Shown here in pieces: positions 51,746-60,370 of a stretch of 64,000 bases of DNA (its first letter is position 1; every line of letters starts with the position of its first letter). A model generated the notes under the pieces. That model did no database searches. It saw nothing but the letters and a program-made list of their open reading frames with translations, and had not been told where the DNA came from. The translations under genes were made by a program, and so were the position numbers. The DNA comes from Leucobacter luti. Lineage in GTDB: Bacteria > Actinomycetota > Actinomycetes > Actinomycetales > Microbacteriaceae. Where the stretch lies: the NCBI RefSeq assembly GCF_019464495.1, contig NZ_CP080492.1:186001-250000 (forward strand), written 5' to 3'.

Positions 51746-53374
51746 CTATTTCGCGAGTTCGAGCCTGGGCCAGGTGTCAGTGTCGCGGAGCAGCTGCCGG
51801 TCGTGGGTGGTGAGCATGACTGCCGCTCGGGTTGCCCCGAGTGCCTCGGTGAGCTCGTCGACGAGCGCGATCGAGAGGTGGTTTGTCGGCTCGTCGAGCA
51901 GGAGCAGGTGTGGCCGGCTGGCGAGCACCAACGCAAGATGAAGCCTGCGCTGCTGGCCTATCGACAGCTCACTCACTCGCTGCGCTGTCTCTGATGCTCG
52001 AAGCAGACCCAGGCTTGACAGTGAAATTGCCTCGCGCTCTGCGAGCCGTCCCGCCAGCACCAGTGCGGCCACGTGTGCCGCAAACACCTGACTGGCTCTG
52101 CCGTCACCGGGTAGCGCGGTCTCCTGTCCCAGTACCCCGAGTCTGGCGCCGCTGGCAGCGCGAACGGCGCCGGTGCTGGGGGCAAGCACGCCGCTCACGA
52201 TCTGCACGAGTGTCGACTTTCCCACCCCATTCGCGCCAACGATCACCAGGCGCCCCGCGGAGGAAACCTCGAATGAAACCGGTGCCGGGAGACGTGCAGC
52301 GTGCGAAACATTCGTCACGCTCAGCACCGTCGATCCCCGGATCGGCGAGAGATCCGGAAATTGCAGCCGCTGCGGGGGCGCAGGGAGCGGCAGCGACTGC
52401 GCTTCGAGGGCCGCCTGCCGGCGGTGCACGCTATGCACGAGTGCTCCAGCGCGCGTCGCGCGACCGTGCTTGTTGGTGCCCTTGTCAGGGCGCCACCCGG
52501 AAATGAGCCGGTTCTGTGCTGCGCTCAGGTCGCACTGCAGTCGCTCGAGATCGCCCTGCTGTCGTTCGTATTCCTGCTCCCAGCGCGTGCGCGCTGCCGT
52601 CCGACCCTCGCGGTAGGCCGTGTAGCCCCCATACATTCGAGGGCGATCGTCGGGAGTGGGATCCAGATCAAGCACTGCTTCTGCGCAATCCGAAAGAAAC
52701 GCGCGATCATGACTCACGAGTACCACGCCGCCTCTTCGTTCCCGCACCTGTGTGGTGAGAAAGTCGAGGCCAGAGTGGTCGAGATGGTTGGTCGGTTCGT
52801 CGAGCAGGAGGAAATCGTCGCTTCCCCCCAGGAGGCAGGCCAGCCGCACGCGGGAGCGTTGGCCAACCGAGAGTTCAGCAAGTGGCCGGTCCATGTCCGT
52901 GCTGGCGTGCAGTGCTCGGAGCGCGGTGAGTACACGACGTTCCGCGTCCCAGGCAGCAGCGGCCTCAGCGCGTTCAAGCGCGGTCGCGTAGGCAAGCTCT
53001 CCGCCCTGGTCGCCGTTCGCGAGCGCGGCAGCTGCGCGGTCCAGCTCTGCGAGTGCCGCGAGTGGGAGGGCTATTGCCGCGGACACGAGCGTGCCAACAG
53101 TCGTGTCCGCTGCGACGGGAAGCTCTTGCTTGGCGCGCCCGATCGTGCCGATCAGTGTCACGCCACCAGCATCGGGAGCGAGTTCCCCGGCGAGTACATC
53201 GAGCAGCGTGGATTTTCCACGCCCGTTCTCGCCGACCACGGCGATGCGTGAGCCCGCGGTGACGGTGAGATCAAGCTCGTGGAGGACCCGATTGCCGCCG
53301 CGGATGACCGAGACGTCGGAGGCGATGAGTTGAGCGCGGTGGCGCGGAGGGGTGGACAGGGGTGAGTGCTGCAT
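51746..53374 (-). CDS. ABC-F ATPase, probable ribosome-protection antibiotic resistance factor
   Basis: 542 residues with two ABC domains and no membrane segment. The first has Walker A GENGRGKST, signature ELSVGQRSRVRLA and LLLDEPTNHLDHSGLDFL; the second has GANGVGKST, ELSIGQQRRLHLA and LLLDEPTNHLSIALVDEL. They are joined by an Arg-rich interdomain linker (TAARTRWEQEYERQQGDLERL), the part that reaches the peptidyl-transferase centre in resistance ABC-F proteins. GAAGGA lies 5 bases upstream of ATG 53374 but can be paired with CCTTCG in the leader. This, with the leader peptide upstream, suggests antibiotic-induced expression. The drug class is not readable. Confidence 0.88.
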   Translation of the reverse strand: MQHSPLSTPPRHRAQLIASDVSVIRGGNRVLHELDLTVTAGSRIAVVGENGRGKSTLLDVLAGELAPDAGGVTLIGTIGRAKQELPVAADTTVGTLVSAAIALPLAALAELDRAAAALANGDQGGELAYATALERAEAAAAWDAERRVLTALRALHASTDMDRPLAELSVGQRSRVRLACLLGGSDDFLLLDEPTNHLDHSGLDFLTTQVRERRGGVVLVSHDRAFLSDCAEAVLDLDPTPDDRPRMYGGYTAYREGRTAARTRWEQEYERQQGDLERLQCDLSAAQNRLISGWRPDKGTNKHGRATRAGALVHSVHRRQAALEAQSLPLPAPPQRLQFPDLSPIRGSTVLSVTNVSHAARLPAPVSFEVSSAGRLVIVGANGVGKSTLVQIVSGVLAPSTGAVRAASGARLGVLGQETALPGDGRASQVFAAHVAALVLAGRLAEREAISLSSLGLLRASETAQRVSELSIGQQRRLHLALVLASRPHLLLLDEPTNHLSIALVDELTEALGATRAAVMLTTHDRQLLRDTDTWPRLELAK

Positions 53375-53534
53375 AGTGTTCCTTCGCTCACGCGAACCGC
53401 GCCACGCACGAAGGCACTTAACGGGTCCGCAGATAACGGTGCCCCAGGAGGGCAGATCACGTGCCGGCCATCAGCTCGGGGAACGAGTCCGTCTGTGCGG
53501 AGTTCTCGCCGGGCGAGGCGTGGCAGTGCCGTTA
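53375..53534 (-). promoter_or_regulatory. Putative translational attenuator of the ABC-F gene
   Basis: On the minus strand, segment A (53522-53537) begins at the leader-peptide stop and can pair with segment B (53432-53443; 7+4 bp around a 3-base bulge). Segment C (53409-53425) carries CCGTTA and GTGCC plus CCTTCG. GTGCC of C can pair with GGCAC of B, and CCTTCG (53409-53414) can pair with CGAAGG (53381-53386), which covers the ABC-F Shine-Dalgarno. A:B with C:D would close the ribosome binding site; B:C would open it. The pairings were found by eye and energies were not calculated. Confidence 0.55.
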
Positions 53535-53558
53535 TTACAGGAAGTACATGTGCCGCAT
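53535..53558 (-). CDS. Short leader peptide MRHMYFL upstream of the ABC-F gene
   Basis: Eight codons including TAA, reading M-R-H-M-Y-F-L. It lies 28 bases after the tetR stop and 160 bases before the ABC-F start. The Shine-Dalgarno is weak (GGTG about 7 bases upstream). Its stop codon is the first base set of the pairing segment A, so a ribosome halted on this peptide by a drug would block A:B pairing. Peptides of this size are usual in inducible ribosome-resistance leaders. Coding status is inferred from the arrangement. Confidence 0.5.
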   Translation of the reverse strand: MRHMYFL

Positions 53559-53585
53559 GGCACCAACGCTACCGCACGGCGAAGC

Positions 53586-54161
53586 CTACGTCACGGAATA
53601 CGTGCGCGCCATCGCCTCGCACTGCAGCATCAGTTCGGTTCGACGCGACTCCGAAGTCGCAGTTGGGACGATCATGTTCGTTACGCGAGTGAGTGTCCAC
53701 CAGCTCGCGCAGAGCGCCACGATGCTGAGGAGGAGGTGCCCGGCCTGCTGGACACTCAATCCGGGCATTGCGTCCGCCACCGCGCGTACGTGAGCCGCGC
53801 ACGATGCGGCTCGCGCTGGGGTCCCCGCATCTTCGCTCAGCTCCAGACTTTCCCAGGCGAGCAGTCTGGCAAGGTCCGTGTGGCCGTTGAAGTAATCAAA
53901 CATCTCGCCGGCGTACTTGCCGATACCCTCCGGCCCACGCTCCGGAACACCAGCCCCGGAGAGGAGATCAGCGAGACGGTCGGCGAGCACGGCGTCAAAC
54001 AATCCTTGTTTGTTGCCGAAGTACTGGTACACACGTTCCTTGTTCACGCCGGCATCTGTGCCGATGCGGTCCATTCGGGCACCAGCTAGGCCATGTGCGG
54101 CGAACTGCCGCGCCCCTGCATCAAGGAGGTGCCGTTGCGTTGCCGCCGTATCCCAAGCCAT
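53586..54161 (-). CDS. TetR-family transcriptional regulator
   Basis: A 191-residue regulator. The N-terminal HTH (residues ~10-55) reads LLDAGARQFAAHGLAGARMDRIGTDAGVNKERVYQYFGNKQGLFDAVL, broken here as LLDAGARQFAAHG then AGVNKERVYQYFGNK. The C-terminal ligand domain is of the type seen in AcrR-like proteins. It is divergent from a small membrane protein/oxidoreductase pair, with two matching palindromes in the 87-base gap. Downstream on the same strand is the ABC-F gene, so readthrough may also link them. Confidence 0.9.
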   Translation of the reverse strand: MAWDTAATQRHLLDAGARQFAAHGLAGARMDRIGTDAGVNKERVYQYFGNKQGLFDAVLADRLADLLSGAGVPERGPEGIGKYAGEMFDYFNGHTDLARLLAWESLELSEDAGTPARAASCAAHVRAVADAMPGLSVQQAGHLLLSIVALCASWWTLTRVTNMIVPTATSESRRTELMLQCEAMARTYSVT

Positions 54162-54180
54162 GTGTCAAGTCTATCTGAAT

Positions 54181-54196
54181 CCAAACGGGTATTTGG
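54181..54196. promoter_or_regulatory. TetR operator candidate 1
   Basis: CCAAACGGGTATTTGG: CCAAA/TTTGG arms, 16 bp. It overlaps the -35 hexamer of the rightward promoter and shares its outer arms with the second site 45 bases downstream. Confidence 0.7.
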
Positions 54197-54221
54197 AAAA
54201 CAGTGGTTCCACGGCTACGCT
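54193..54221 (+). promoter_or_regulatory. Promoter of the small membrane protein/oxidoreductase pair
   Basis: TTGGAA (54193-54198), 17-base spacer, TACGCT (54216-54221). It is flanked on both sides by the two palindromic sites, so repressor binding would block it. Confidence 0.6.
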
Positions 54222-54225
54222 GTAC

Positions 54226-54241
54226 CCAAACAAACGTTTGG
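54226..54241. promoter_or_regulatory. TetR operator candidate 2
   Basis: CCAAACAAACGTTTGG: perfect CCAAAC/GTTTGG arms with a 4-base centre, ending 7 bases before the ATG at 54249. Confidence 0.75.
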
Positions 54242-54248
54242 AGAATAC

Positions 54249-54476
54249 ATGCCCCCGCTTCCTTTGCCCATCCGGATACTCACAACCTGGGGCGTGATCC
54301 TGCCATTGGCACTCCTTGCGCAGTGGGCGCTTTCTCCACTCACCGAAACGTGGCATCCCGTACTGCGCCTCACCGCTACCATTTCGCTCGTGGTGCCCAT
54401 CGCAGTGACCTGGGGCCTCCCGCTCGCCATGCGCGCAGCCGCTTCACTCGGACGCACCCGGCGGAAGCTCCGATGA
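54249..54476 (+). CDS. Small two-helix membrane protein
   Basis: 75 residues with two hydrophobic helices (about 8-28 and 38-58) and a basic C-terminus (RTRRKLR). I do not recognise a named family; the size and layout resemble DUF2798-like small membrane proteins. ATG 54249 follows TTTGGAG within the second operator. ATGA overlap with the next gene shows co-translation, and the operators indicate TetR control. Confidence 0.65.
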   Translation: MPPLPLPIRILTTWGVILPLALLAQWALSPLTETWHPVLRLTATISLVVPIAVTWGLPLAMRAAASLGRTRRKLR

Positions 54477-56343: not shown

Positions 56344-56880
56344 ATGACTGACACGACGCGAGCGGAATCACCGCGCTATGACGCGGACGAAACCGCTGGG
56401 GCAGATGCCCTCAAGGTGGCGTTTCGACACCACCCGGCAGGAGTGTCGCTCATAGCTGCACGAACTCCCGAAGGGCCCGTCGGCCTTACCGCTTCAAGTG
56501 TCGCGTCGGTCGGAATTGATCCAGCAACGATCTCGTTCTCAGTGACCCGCGCAACCGGGAGTGCGGGTGGGATCCTGAACGCAGACAGCTACGTTGTGCA
56601 CCTGCTTGATGAACGGCACGCGGCAATTGCGGCGACGTTCGCCGTATCGGGCACCGAGCGCTTCACGCCCGAGCAGGGATGGCGCAAGCTGGTGACCGGT
56701 GAGCCGTATCTGCCCGACACGCGGGTTGCACTGCGTTGCCGCACGCTGCACTCTCTCGGTGTGGGCTCGTCGGTGATCGTGGTCGCGGAAGTGCTTGGCG
56801 CAGTATTTGGCGCGGCTGCCGGGCCGATGGTGCACGTTGATCGCACGTTTCGGGGCGTGGGGCCCGAGATTTCTAATTGA
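56344..56880 (+). CDS. Flavin reductase-like FMN-binding protein
   Basis: A 178-residue member of the flavin reductase/HpaC-like split-barrel family. Typical segments: ALKVAFRHHPAGVSLIAA, GLTASSVASVGIDPATISFSV and VHLLDERHAAIAATFA. Members supply reduced FMN or FAD to monooxygenases, or act directly on substrates. No monooxygenase gene is adjacent. GGAGC lies upstream of ATG 56344. Its 3' end overlaps the convergent MFS gene by 8 bases. Confidence 0.85.
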   Translation: MTDTTRAESPRYDADETAGADALKVAFRHHPAGVSLIAARTPEGPVGLTASSVASVGIDPATISFSVTRATGSAGGILNADSYVVHLLDERHAAIAATFAVSGTERFTPEQGWRKLVTGEPYLPDTRVALRCRTLHSLGVGSSVIVVAEVLGAVFGAAAGPMVHVDRTFRGVGPEISN

Positions 56881-58129
56881 CCACTGGGGTCCGCAGCGCC
56901 CCGGGCTCGGGGGTGCGGAACATCGGGTGCCAAAACACGAAGATGCAGACCGCGCTGAGGATGAGTGCACCGGTGATCACTGGAAGCGGTGCGCTGAAAC
57001 TATAGAGCAGAGTGCTCGCAGTGGGGGCGATGACGAACGTGAGTCCGTTCGTCGCCCCGACGAGACCCGCCAGGCCACCCTGTTCTTCTCTGCGCATCAG
57101 CAGTGTCGGCCCTGCCGTGTACCCCGGCATCGCGGTCCCGATCCCGAGCCCGATAATGAGCAGCGCTAGCATCAACAGCGCCACGCCGGCGTTCGGGATC
57201 AGCAACAGGAAGCCAACGAGTGCGGACGGGCACCCGACCCGGAGCAGCGTAGCCGGGCTCCACCCGCTCCTCGGGACAATAACGCCCTGCGCAACAATCA
57301 TGCCAGCGCCAGCTGCAAGGAGTGCTGCGCCGGTGAGGGCTCCTGTGGCTCCTGCGGTGAGCCCCAGGCGGTCTTGAACGATGAACCCTGTAATGACCTG
57401 AATGAATCCGAGCGCCGTGAACATCCCAAAGCCAGTAACGAGGAACGGCCATACGCGTGGGTCGCTGGGCCGGATTCTCGCGGGTGCTGGCACCAACTCC
57501 GAGCGTGACTCGCGACGGAGTCCGACGAGAACCGCGGCCAGTGCAAGTGCGAGCAGTACGGGAACGGCGATGAGCGGGGCGATGAGGCCGAGCGTCGAGA
57601 GCGTTCCGCCGACGATTGCTCCGGCGACCATTGCGATTCCCTGAACCGCCCCGACGCCAGACATCCCTTTCACACGCGCCGCCTCGTCGAGCGTGACATC
57701 CGCGATATACGCCTGCGCGGTGGGCCCGACAGCTGCGATCGCCGTGCCAAAGCCGACACCCCGTAGCAGGATGAAGAGCGTGAAGAGTAGGCCCCCCGTG
57801 ATGAGGCCACGAAACCCAGCCTCAGCCAGCAGCGCGAACAGCAGCATCGTCACCGTGGCGAGAGCAAGCGCGGTGACGAGTACCGGCTTGCGGCCCCAGG
57901 ACTGTGAGCGTCGTCCCCAGAACTGACTGGTGCCGACCACCATTACGGCAGCCGCGCTAATGGTGACGCCGACTTGCCACTCGGCAAGACCGACCTCGCG
58001 CGAAAGCGGGGCAATGATTGGGTTCAGTGTGGTCTGGCCGAGGAACGCCAGGAACACGGCCGTGAGCAGGAGCGGAACTTGGGGGGCTGTTCGCGCCGTC
58101 CCTCTGGGTGATGGTGTTGTGACGCTCAC
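56873..58129 (-). CDS. MFS drug-type exporter, divergent from a TetR regulator
   Basis: A 418-residue major facilitator with 12 predicted helices. The A-motif loop between TM2 and TM3 reads QFWGRRSQSWGRKPVL, and the TM5 segment GVGAVQGIAMVAGAIVGG matches motif C-like glycine patterns of drug:proton antiporters. GTG 58129 has AGGAAT 6 bases upstream. It is divergent from a TetR-family gene with a palindrome in the gap, so an inducible efflux system is likely. The exported compound is unknown. Confidence 0.87.
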   Translation of the reverse strand: MSVTTPSPRGTARTAPQVPLLLTAVFLAFLGQTTLNPIIAPLSREVGLAEWQVGVTISAAAVMVVGTSQFWGRRSQSWGRKPVLVTALALATVTMLLFALLAEAGFRGLITGGLLFTLFILLRGVGFGTAIAAVGPTAQAYIADVTLDEAARVKGMSGVGAVQGIAMVAGAIVGGTLSTLGLIAPLIAVPVLLALALAAVLVGLRRESRSELVPAPARIRPSDPRVWPFLVTGFGMFTALGFIQVITGFIVQDRLGLTAGATGALTGAALLAAGAGMIVAQGVIVPRSGWSPATLLRVGCPSALVGFLLLIPNAGVALLMLALLIIGLGIGTAMPGYTAGPTLLMRREEQGGLAGLVGATNGLTFVIAPTASTLLYSFSAPLPVITGALILSAVCIFVFWHPMFRTPEPGALRTPVVN

Positions 58130-58241: not shown

Positions 58242-59021
58242 ATGTCGACAGGGAATCGAAGTGGCGGTCGCAGGCACTACCGAACTGGGATCAGCGCAGA
58301 CGCGATCATTGATTCAGCGCTGAGCCTGACTCGCGAAGTCGGCCTCCAAGCCTGGTCGACACGGGACCTTGCCACACGGCTCGATACGTCGTTGTCCGTG
58401 CTGTACCGCAAATTCGGCGATCGTGCCGGCATCGAAGCTGCTGTCGTTGAGCGCGTCATCCTGCGAGCGATGCCGATGAGTTCCGCCACCGACTGGCGCG
58501 GCTGGCTGACGGACATGCTCGCGCCGGCGTTGCTGCGATTGTGGCCCTACCCCGGAGTTGCAGAGTGGACGTTCTTTCATGGACCAGCGCTTCCCAGCGT
58601 CATCCCGACCATTTCGCGCGGTATCGAGTTGCTGCGTGACGGCGGGTTTGGCGAGGATGCTCCGCTCGCATACTCCGTCGCATTCAACACCGTGATCAGC
58701 GAGATTGCGCTGTCAGATCAGCGGCGCACGGGCCGTAGCGGGGTGCAGCCGACCCGAGCAGACTTTGTGCAGGTGCTGCGTGCCCCATCGGACACCGAGG
58801 GGCACGGGCCGGATGGAAACACCCCTCCTCAACACAGCGCCGAGGAGATGGCGACATTCATCGAACAGTTCGACGCTGTCAATCCCACAGGCGCAGGCGG
58901 GGGAGTCCCATGCCCCCCAGATCAGCCTCCCGTGGCCACGTCACGCTACTTCGCATATCTCTTGGATTCAGTGATTGCCGGGCTGCAGCACCAGCTCGAT
59001 GCACGCTCAGAAAACCGGTGA
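58242..59021 (+). CDS. TetR-family regulator of the divergent MFS exporter
   Basis: A 259-residue regulator. The HTH region (residues ~15-60) includes SADAIIDSALSLTREVGLQ and DLATRLDTSLSVLYRKFGDR, typical of TetR proteins. The ligand domain is longer than average and has a Gly/Pro-rich stretch near residue 225. ATG 58242 follows GAGGAAGAATGG. Together with the palindrome at 58201 it most likely represses both itself and the MFS gene. Confidence 0.9.
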   Translation: MSTGNRSGGRRHYRTGISADAIIDSALSLTREVGLQAWSTRDLATRLDTSLSVLYRKFGDRAGIEAAVVERVILRAMPMSSATDWRGWLTDMLAPALLRLWPYPGVAEWTFFHGPALPSVIPTISRGIELLRDGGFGEDAPLAYSVAFNTVISEIALSDQRRTGRSGVQPTRADFVQVLRAPSDTEGHGPDGNTPPQHSAEEMATFIEQFDAVNPTGAGGGVPCPPDQPPVATSRYFAYLLDSVIAGLQHQLDARSENR

Positions 59022-59040: not shown

Positions 59041-60273
59041 TTAGACCACTCGGATCCCGACCGTGTTGAGATTCCGCGCTCGCCCGCGGCGTTCGATGCC
59101 GATGCTGATGAGTGCGAGCATCAACCCGAGTGTGGCGAGTGCGGCACCCACCCAGCCGGGCGCAAGATAGCCCAAGCCACCAGCGATAACCATGCCACCG
59201 AGCCACGCCCCGAGGCTGTTGCCGATATTGAATGCCGCGTGGTTCACCGCAGCCCCCAGGAGTGCGGCTTCATCAGAGATGCGGATCAAGCGCGCCTGGA
59301 TCGACGGGACGAGGGTCGACGAGGTGAGTCCGAGCGCGAACACCAGTGCGAACAGCGAGACCGGCCCCGTGGCAAGCAAGGAGTAGCTGACCAACACCGC
59401 AATAAAGAGCGTGAAGCCAATCACGATGGTGCGCGTGAGATGGCGATCACTCGCCCAGCCGCCGATGAAGTTGCCAATTGTCATCCCCACGCCGAGGCAA
59501 CCCAGCACCCAGGGAATGGATCCCGGCGACATTCCGGCGACCCGTGTGGTGACCTCAGCGATGTACGAGTACACCGCGAAAAAGCCGCCAAAGCCGACAG
59601 AGCCGACCGCGATCATGACCCAGATCCGCGGGTTCCGCAGCGCGGAGAGCTCGCGCGCGGGACTCCGCTCAGGATTTCCAGGGTATCGCGGAAGGAACGC
59701 GAGTCCGAGCACGAGAGTCGCGATAAAGATCACCGCGACGAAGGCGTACGCCCAGCGCCAACCAGCAATCTGTCCAAGCCAGGTGGCGAGGGGGACACCG
59801 ATGACATTCGCGATCGTGAGGCCAGACAGGGCGAGCGCGATTCCCTGCCCCTGTTTTCCCGGGCCCATGATGCGCGCTGCGAGGAGCGAGGCGACGCCGA
59901 AGTAGGCGCCATGCGGCAGAGCCGCAATAAAGCGGAACACCGCAAGTGACCCAAACGTGGGCATGCACGCCGAGGCAATGGTCCCGACAATAAACAGGCC
60001 GAGCAGCCAGAACGTGAGCTTGGTCTGCGAGACGCGAGCGGCGAGCACCGCGAAGGTCGGCGCTCCCACCACCACACCGAGCGCGTACGCAGTGATCAAG
60101 ATTCCCGCGTGAGCGATGCCCGTCGTGGGCGCTGCCTCGAAACCGGGCAACAGATCGCGCGCAATATCGGGGAGGAGCCCCATCGTCGCAAACTCAGTAA
60201 CACCGATCCCGAAGCCGCCAAGGGCGAGCGCAAAGAGGGCGATGCCGCGGCGAAGCGGAGTGAGCGAGGACAT
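59041..60273 (-). CDS. MFS transporter of the AraJ/DHA1 group
   Basis: A 410-residue major facilitator with 12 helices. GFGIGVTEFATMGLLPDIA at TM1 and the segment GVPLATWLGQIAGWRWAY in TM5 are diagnostic for the AraJ/YdeA/Cml-like DHA1 subfamily, which exports sugars, chloramphenicol or other small molecules. ATG 60273 begins the homologous region; the in-frame extension to 60315 is rejected. It is convergent with the tetR gene at 58242. Confidence 0.88.
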   Translation of the reverse strand: MSSLTPLRRGIALFALALGGFGIGVTEFATMGLLPDIARDLLPGFEAAPTTGIAHAGILITAYALGVVVGAPTFAVLAARVSQTKLTFWLLGLFIVGTIASACMPTFGSLAVFRFIAALPHGAYFGVASLLAARIMGPGKQGQGIALALSGLTIANVIGVPLATWLGQIAGWRWAYAFVAVIFIATLVLGLAFLPRYPGNPERSPARELSALRNPRIWVMIAVGSVGFGGFFAVYSYIAEVTTRVAGMSPGSIPWVLGCLGVGMTIGNFIGGWASDRHLTRTIVIGFTLFIAVLVSYSLLATGPVSLFALVFALGLTSSTLVPSIQARLIRISDEAALLGAAVNHAAFNIGNSLGAWLGGMVIAGGLGYLAPGWVGAALATLGLMLALISIGIERRGRARNLNTVGIRVV

Positions 60274-60370
60274 GGACGAGCCTTTCGAAGCTGACGGGCG
60301 CAGTGCGGAGCGCAATCGCGGCCGTGACTGCGCGACTCAGCAATGTTAGCGGTCGCTGATGTCCTCCGGG

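Follow-up and report, generated by a model that had tools for sequence, protein, structure and literature searches.

A conserved candidate leader-peptide attenuator before an ABC-F gene of Leucobacter luti, with a wiring unlike that first proposed

Background

Does the short upstream open reading frame (uORF) that precedes the ABC-F gene at this locus control that gene and, if it does, through which RNA structures? The window, the whole 64,000-nucleotide stretch of DNA analysed here, is part of a 3.41-Mb single-contig genome. A preliminary description of it proposed a drug-sensing switch made of the uORF, which encodes MRHMYFL, and several competing pairings. We conclude that the leader in the window is real and conserved, that it is probably a leader-peptide attenuator of the ABC-F gene, and that its wiring is unlike the one proposed. 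At a probability of about 0.7, the gene is controlled by ribosome stalling on the leader peptide, with a leaderless uORF and two pairings, P1 at the uORF stop codon and P0 between the uORF and the ABC-F ribosome-binding site. The uORF, P1, two further structures (P2 and P4) and the spacing of the -10 element are the parts that sequence comparison points to as conserved (Table 1). The kind of switch is already known, and this leader family looks like a new variant of its wiring.

Table 1. Features of the leader and of the ABC-F gene, with positions in the window
Feature	Position	Strand	Basis or remark
Possible -35 hexamer GTGACG, 17 nt before the -10 element	53589..53594	-	4 of 6 positions as in TTGACA; weak
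-10-like element TAGCGT, beginning 13 nt before the uORF start	53566..53571	-	TANNNT spacing in 32 leaders
uORF MRHMYFL with stop TAA, ATGCGGCACATGTACTTCCTGTAA	53535..53558	-	Related peptides before 19/19 family ABC-F genes; pattern search
P1 5' arm AUAACGG, starting at the last base of the stop codon	53529..53535	-	Covarying helix in relatives
P2 region, between the P1 arm and P4	53456..53524	-	P2 covaries in relatives
P4 hairpin UGCCC-UCCUG-GGGCA	53440..53454	-	Probability 0.88-0.95; covaries in relatives
P1 3' arm CCGUUAU	53433..53439	-	Covarying helix in relatives
P5 5' arm GCGGACC	53424..53430	-	Probability 0.74, 0.64 and 0.00 for three coding-region lengths
CCTTCG, the anti-Shine-Dalgarno of the preliminary description	53409..53414	-	Not conserved: 2/32 leaders
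P5 3' arm GGUUCGC	53392..53398	-	As P5 5' arm
Shine-Dalgarno AAGGA of the ABC-F gene	53380..53384	-	Sequence
ABC-F ATPase, 542 aa	51746..53374	-	Nearest to ribosome-protection ABC-F families

The leader and its neighbourhood

The uORF is present on the minus strand where it had been described, with 160 nt between its stop codon and the ATG of the ABC-F gene, and it is conserved in relatives. The preliminary description had assigned the DNA to a Microbacteriaceae-like host; in agreement with this, the protein nearest to the ABC-F of the window, at 98% identity, is named Leucobacter luti. At gathering score, Rfam gave no match to the leader and only two tRNAs in the window.

A TetR-type gene (53586-54161) lies on the same strand as the uORF and ends 27 nt before it. 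Inverted repeats, CCAAACGTTTGTTTGG and CCAAATACCCGTTTGG, occur at 54181-54241 between this gene and the divergent genes; they are possibly the operator of the TetR protein, on the side away from the ABC-F gene. Also near the ABC-F gene are a TetR-like gene on the plus strand (58242-59021) and an MFS drug-transporter-like gene on the minus strand (56873-58129) that is weakly Tet-like (55 bits against a cut-off of 475). Another MFS drug-transporter-like gene on the minus strand (59041-60315) is nearest to the Cmx/CmrA chloramphenicol efflux proteins (269 against a cut-off of 400).

Conservation of the leader peptide

We identified ABC-F matches at E ≤1e-110 in 19 of 398 genomes of the family, the genome of the window included. 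Each of these 19 genes is preceded by a short frame that encodes a related peptide of 6-7 residues and starts 168-293 nt before the match. MHLYFL occurs eight times among the 19 leaders and VFLLLFS three times; VHLYYL, VHLHFL, VHLFFL, VQFLLFL, VFLLLFC, MFILLFH, MRHYFFL and the MRHMYFL of the window occur once each. The preliminary description had called the peptide unfamiliar, but it is not an orphan, as MHLYFL-type leaders are found in many actinobacterial genera. MHLYFL or VHLYFL is present in Nesterenkonia, Ruania, Hoyosella, Microbacterium and Brevibacterium, MHLIFQ and MHLIFE in Rhodococcus, VPYVFYL in Actinoplanes, and MAYQFYL in Amycolatopsis.

At the order level, 48 of 396 genomes had an ABC-F match, and 29 further loci were fetched, 18 matches being left unfetched. 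MHLYFL precedes the gene at 5 of the 29 (L027-L030, L035). At 17 others (L031-L034, L036-L048) the leader is different, with 13-17 residues and with K/R-x-R near its end in 14 cases and K-L-W in three; the leader frame of L047 is read only from an inner ATG and has 10 residues. No such leader was found at the remaining seven loci (L049-L055, ABC-F family f9), two of which, L049 and L053, were scanned again. Among 13 loci from named genomes, all nine with an ABC-F of at least 51% identity have the leader; none was seen at L068, the one examined of the four weaker or partial matches. Three loci, L065-L067, were left out of the leader examination, and L075 and L076 were fetched but not used. A leader precedes the gene in all five plasmid copies fetched from the 15 records listed; four of these leaders are of the HLYFL type, and that of L072 is of the K/R-x-R type.

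The pattern TGCGNCAYNNNTWYTTYYTNTRA (R-H-x-[YF]-F-L-stop) matched the 398 family genomes twice, in the window and before the ABC-F gene of genome G003, and its reversed control once. With the leader DNA as query, seven places were found in six plasmid records, two of them in a single record, and the best place in every one of the six precedes this ABC-F family.

Near-identical leaders and promoters are present in different genera (L010; L011, from a contig of 10.9 kb; and L069, from a mobilizable plasmid), and an identical 107-nt leader segment is shared by L070, on a Janibacter plasmid, and L074, on a 9.7-kb contig of a family genome. Given such copies across genera, contigs and plasmids, the leader and ABC-F gene seem to move between actinobacteria as a unit. 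The second copy in genome G754 (L080, G754:C1:3069259) has an intact leader and a broken ABC-F gene, and six Prescottella equi plasmid records (H9-H14) carry a 50% identical ABC-F.

The ABC-F protein and its phylogeny

The NCBIfam models that best match the ABC-F of the window are ABCF_producer and ribo_prot_ABC_F, both under their curated cut-offs. The score for NF000171, the TlrC/CarA/OleB/SrmB resistance proteins, was 313.8 bits (cut-off 800) and that for NF000355, the ribosomal protection-like ABC-F proteins, 301.9 bits (cut-off 380), too low for membership of either, yet these two families ranked best. The earlier suggestion that the protein is of a resistance type agrees with its nearest families, which are ribosome-protection proteins, and falls short of their curated scores.

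In a protein tree of 56 rows, HLYFL- and FLLLF-type genes formed a clade of 25 rows (support 100/98) with the ABC-F of the window at its base, and those of the K/R-x-R type formed a separate clade (support 100/99). L026, L062, L063 and L073 fell outside both. The HLYFL-type rows require three changes on the tree, and L026, L033 and L035 are on long branches. L032, L034 and L072 are labelled "none" in the tree, as the first scan was limited to at most 16 codons; their leaders were found on a rescan.

At 10 of 30 loci examined, and in plasmid copies L069-L071, the ABC-F gene overlaps a following transporter-like frame by 4 nt. The frames of L069 and L070 are nearest to Tet(V), below the cut-off, and their similarity to Mef is weak. 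No such overlapping frame is present beside the ABC-F gene of the window.

RNA structure of the leader

RNAalifold found almost no structure in a first alignment, which included divergent rows and some misset ABC-F starts. Two RNA models were used. The first, R1, is based on 19 HLYFL-type leaders, the window excluded. It found the leader of the window at 53432-53555 (25.6 bits, E 8.6e-4 in 386 kb), its best match in the 64 kb. In 60 sources R1 gave 33 matches, of which 32 fall on leaders that precede these ABC-F genes (19 training and 13 untrained) and one is a chance match; it missed L026, L062 and L063 among the HLYFL-type sources and found no K/R-x-R leader. In the 396 order genomes, searched under a stricter filter, R1 matched seven places, all before this ABC-F gene and one of them the broken second copy in G754; G000 is absent from the seven, although R1 finds the leader in the search of the 60 sources. 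Model R2 was built without the window and without the uORF columns, and its best match in the window was again the leader (53432-53534, 22.8 bits, E 0.0015; next match 0.02). It found seven of 14 untrained HLYFL-type sources (the window, L014, L018, L021, L023, L024 and L025), missed L026, L035, L060, L061, L062, L063 and L073, and found no K/R-x-R leader, its matches in L032, L034 and L072 falling outside their leaders.

P1, P2 and P4 covary in the R1 alignment. There the share of paired cells is 92.8%, whereas slid partners give 24-50%, and 20 of 25 pairs are changed on both sides, in 48 cells altogether; none of 500 shuffles matches this level. These figures are for an alignment fitted to the model that includes the one chance row and a misplaced P1 of the window. 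P1 is UGACGGC:GCCGUCA in most leaders, UAACGGC:GCCGUU in the VFLLLF type and UAACGG:CCGUUA in the window, with further variants in L035 (UAAGGGC:GCCCUUA), L058 (GACGAC:GUCGUC) and L060 (GACGGA:UCCGUC). In the R1 matches it begins at or adjoins the uORF stop, so that a stalled ribosome would change the structure. The predicted probability of P1 in the window without a ribosome is 0.88, 0.88 and 0.98 for the three coding-region lengths. Alignments A1 and R1 set the P1 of the window three bases out of register because of an extra TAA, and R2 places it correctly. Of the 7+4 bp pairing at the stop codon that had been described, the 7 bp are this helix, and the 4-bp extension competes with P4. A lack of conservation of the peptide or pairings in relatives had been named beforehand as a refutation, and the peptide and this pairing proved to be conserved.

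The P2 region of the window is longer than that of most relatives (24 nt at a place where model R2 has 4, with 4 of its 13 pairs non-standard in the R2 alignment), and a small hairpin, CTCGTTCCCCGAG, lies inside it at 53487-53475. P5 is a hairpin before the Shine-Dalgarno sequence whose columns vary on both sides in relatives by the RNAalifold count. The P2 loop sequence CGUUGAG and a second sequence, GCUCGUU, are nearly invariant in HLYFL-type leaders and unpaired in the consensus (columns 46-52 of alignment A2); neither is kept in the window.

A probable leaderless start

In all 32 distinct leaders, a set that omits the near copies L011, L027, L057 and L069, a TANNNT element begins 12 nt (24 leaders) or 13 nt (8 leaders) before the uORF start. 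Elsewhere between distances 6 and 53 it occurs only four times. L029 and L063 have a second in-frame start a few codons upstream, and the inner start was used. The similarity to a -35 element is weak (3-4 of 6 positions in five leaders checked). This -10 spacing would put the 5' end of the transcript at the start codon of the uORF, which is probably leaderless.

Predicted pairing of the uORF with the ABC-F ribosome-binding site

In each of the 30 leaders folded, the uORF is the preferred partner of the segment from the Shine-Dalgarno sequence to the start codon (fraction 0.37-0.86), ahead of the central part of the leader and of local pairing. We call this pairing P0; L026 and L063 were dropped from its counts. 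When the uORF and the following 13 nt were forced to be single-stranded, which stands for a stalled ribosome, access to the ribosome-binding site rose more than with every slid mask in 25 of the 30. Covering the uORF failed to beat every slid mask in the window, L016, L017, L020 and L028, and the four relatives among these showed no gain.

The mean P0 fraction was 0.55 when 30 nt of coding region were included, compared with 0.16 for dinucleotide-shuffled uORFs and 0.27 for synonymous recodings; individual values went down to 0.17 in L010 and 0.00 in L012. The combined z was 9.9 against the shuffles and 7.4 against the recodings, values that are not independent and are overstated because the sequences are related. 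Duplex energies gave the same picture (combined z 8.9 against each control; p <0.1 in 20 and 21 of 30). P0 is weaker in the K/R-x-R leaders, with combined z of 3.3 and 3.0 for the 12 of 17 loci covered; an example is L039, where CGGCAUUG pairs with CAAUGCCG across the ABC-F start. When uORFs and ribosome-binding sites were cross-swapped, a clear preference for the own partner was seen only in the VFLLLF type (-12.7 against -9.2) and not in the HLYFL type (-11.8 against -11.5).

In the window itself P0 is at the level of chance, being equalled by 49 of 200 shuffles and 6 of 40 other leader windows, and reached by 37 of 60 synonymous recodings and 6 of 60 shuffles. Its fraction was 0.48, 0.27 and 0.00 with 12, 30 and 60 nt of coding region, and covering the uORF changed access to the ribosome-binding site by +0.05 in one folding and by +0.02, -0.03 and 0.00 for three lengths. 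Support for P0 from the folding models is statistical and holds across the family, not in the window taken by itself.

Alternative explanations

The preliminary description had proposed a four-segment switch, in which CCTTCG holds the Shine-Dalgarno sequence until a stall frees GGCAC, which then pairs with GTGCC so that the Shine-Dalgarno is released. All of the segments occur in the window and P1 is conserved, but CCTTCG lies between P1 and the Shine-Dalgarno in only 2 of 32 leaders and CCTTC in 5. The predicted probability of CCTTCG:CGAAGG without a ribosome is only 0.07, 0.10 and 0.00 for the three coding-region lengths, and with the uORF and 13 nt covered it would rise, to 0.45, 0.21 and 0.06, instead of being lost. 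The competing GGCAC:GTGCC has a probability of 0.00 in both states at all three lengths, and the ribosome-binding sites of relatives pair most with the uORF itself. We consider this wiring improbable. The pattern search, R1, R2 and the pairing probabilities together confirm the uORF and the first pairing as conserved and leave the second and third as segments present in the sequence that nothing else supports. The earlier proposal is supported in its conserved peptide, stop-codon pairing, type of ABC-F gene and host, and not in its wiring.

Control of transcription is an unlikely explanation that deserves more weight. A terminator in the leader, formed by P2 or by P4 with P1, would be prevented by a stalled ribosome, as in msrD and lmrC. 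Actinobacterial terminators can lack a U tract, and 11 of 32 leaders have a stretch of at least five T in 8 nt, placed by eye directly after P1 in L023 and just after P2 in L010, L012 and L022. Such a terminator is also the mode of the known ABC-F leaders, according to the retrieved parts of three papers (PMC10314930, PMC8546547, PMC12421871). However, no terminator-like site was found in 53300-54300 of the window, 21 of the 32 leaders lack a T stretch, and P0 in the relatives would stay unexplained. Translational control is favoured over transcriptional control on these models.

The leader could also respond to a signal other than a drug, such as generally slow translation, an amino acid or an effector acting on the nascent chain. 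Metabolites are sensed by the leaders of some other genes, but in the window leader no amino acid is repeated in a run, and drug sensing fits better because the peptide changes (HLYFL, FLLLF, K/R-x-R) and the gene remains an ABC-F; a non-drug signal seems to us quite improbable. Very little probability attaches to control of the ABC-F gene by the upstream TetR-type regulator with the leader adding little. The position of the TetR-type gene just before the uORF on the same strand would suit such control, but this gene ends before the conserved -10 element, the sequences upstream of that element look unrelated by eye in relatives apart from near copies, and the inverted repeats are on its other side. 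A chance frame with chance pairings would account for the ordinary folding energy of 53375-53600 (z -0.60, with 49 of 200 shuffles equally good) and is contradicted by the family leaders, R1, R2, the covariation and the pattern search, which make it scarcely credible.

Proposed mechanism

In the leader-peptide attenuator that we favour, transcription would start at the uORF start codon, and the 7-codon uORF would be read without a Shine-Dalgarno sequence. Without drug, the ribosome would complete the uORF and depart, and the stop-codon segment would pair about 90 nt downstream (P1) around the hairpins. Across the family, translation of the ABC-F gene would be held off by P0, in which the uORF RNA pairs with the ribosome-binding site and start codon of that gene. 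A drug in the exit tunnel or peptidyl-transferase centre may stall the ribosome near the end of the peptide or at the stop codon. The stalled ribosome would cover the uORF and the P1 5' arm, break P0 and P1, and free the ABC-F start.

By analogy, macrolides are our best guess for the inducing drug, given the ABC-F family scores, the K/R-x-R leaders of the sister clade, the match between the Rhodococcus peptides and MsrDL, and the transporter neighbours. In the retrieved part of PMC8298421, ketolides stall ribosomes mainly at K/R-x-R, and macrolides do so there among other sites; the retrieved part of PMC10314930 also names the motif.

The uORF may be doubly coding, a tentative idea to which we give slightly less than even odds. 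The peptide would be the drug sensor, and its own RNA an antisense repressor of the ABC-F ribosome-binding site and start 70-200 nt away, so that codon choice would be held to the pairing and the leaderless start would make the 5' end of the transcript the sensor. The same principle would hold in two ABC-F clades with unrelated leaders (HLYFL and K/R-x-R), the sensing peptide having been exchanged and the antisense wiring kept.

If the mechanism is correct, a broad set of actinobacterial ABC-F genes, some of them on plasmids, is under drug-sensing control, and the stall in the leader is a direct way to learn which drug each ABC-F answers. MHLYFL, MHLIFQ and VFLLLFS would be new short sequences for the study of joint arrest of the ribosome by drug and nascent chain, and an attenuator with a leaderless uORF and antisense wiring would be a simple two-state addition to those already known.

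Comparison with known leaders

The literature on related attenuators that we consulted covers lmrC, tiaA/are5sc, cplR, vmlR and msrD, and the present leader is not described in the retrieved parts of PMC10201436, PMC8546547, PMC10219788, PMC10314930 and PMC12421871. MHLYFL, MRHMYFL, MHLIF and VHLYFL were not found as whole words in a literature search that mostly excluded subscription papers and so does not show their absence from print.

One close likeness is to msrDL/msrD of streptococci, where a six-residue hydrophobic leader, MYLIFM, precedes an ARE ABC-F gene. The MHLIFQ and MHLIFE of Rhodococcus keep M1, L3, I4 and F5 of this peptide. Induction was lost with alanine at L3 or I4, and Y2 was the least important residue, according to the retrieved part of PMC10314930. 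The combination of L3 and I4 occurs only in L060 and L061 and is lacking in the MRHMYFL of the window. The likeness is a resemblance and does not imply homology. The msrD leader differs also in having an intrinsic terminator, whereas none was seen in the window, its uORF is probably leaderless, and the uORF of relatives pairs with the ribosome-binding site.

The Streptomyces genes lmrC, tiaA and are5sc are likewise actinobacterial ABC-F genes with uORFs and drug-induced expression, but they use terminator and anti-terminator forms as far as the retrieved parts of PMC8546547 and PMC12421871 go. In the same parts, the leader peptides of are5sc (MLV, MRS) and tiaA (MVGDDDISG) are unlike HLYFL; the lmrC peptide is outside this comparison. 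In Clostridioides difficile, cplR (uORF MRI) is an ABC-F gene under both translational and transcriptional attenuation with its Shine-Dalgarno in a stem, and differs in that the terminator stem, not the three-residue uORF, holds it (retrieved part of PMC10201436).

Leaders of the sister clade

The ABC-F genes of the sister clade (L031-L034, L036-L048, L072) have leaders unrelated to the HLYFL type, mostly of 13-17 residues and with K/R-x-R or K-L-W. Leaders with K/R-x-R (+X+) are a family known before erm genes; the sister clade resembles them in carrying the motif near the end of the leader, and the window's own clade differs in lacking it. The sister-clade leaders have TGACGGC at the stop codon, and their -10 element is at the same spacing in the three leaders checked by script (L032, L034 and L072).
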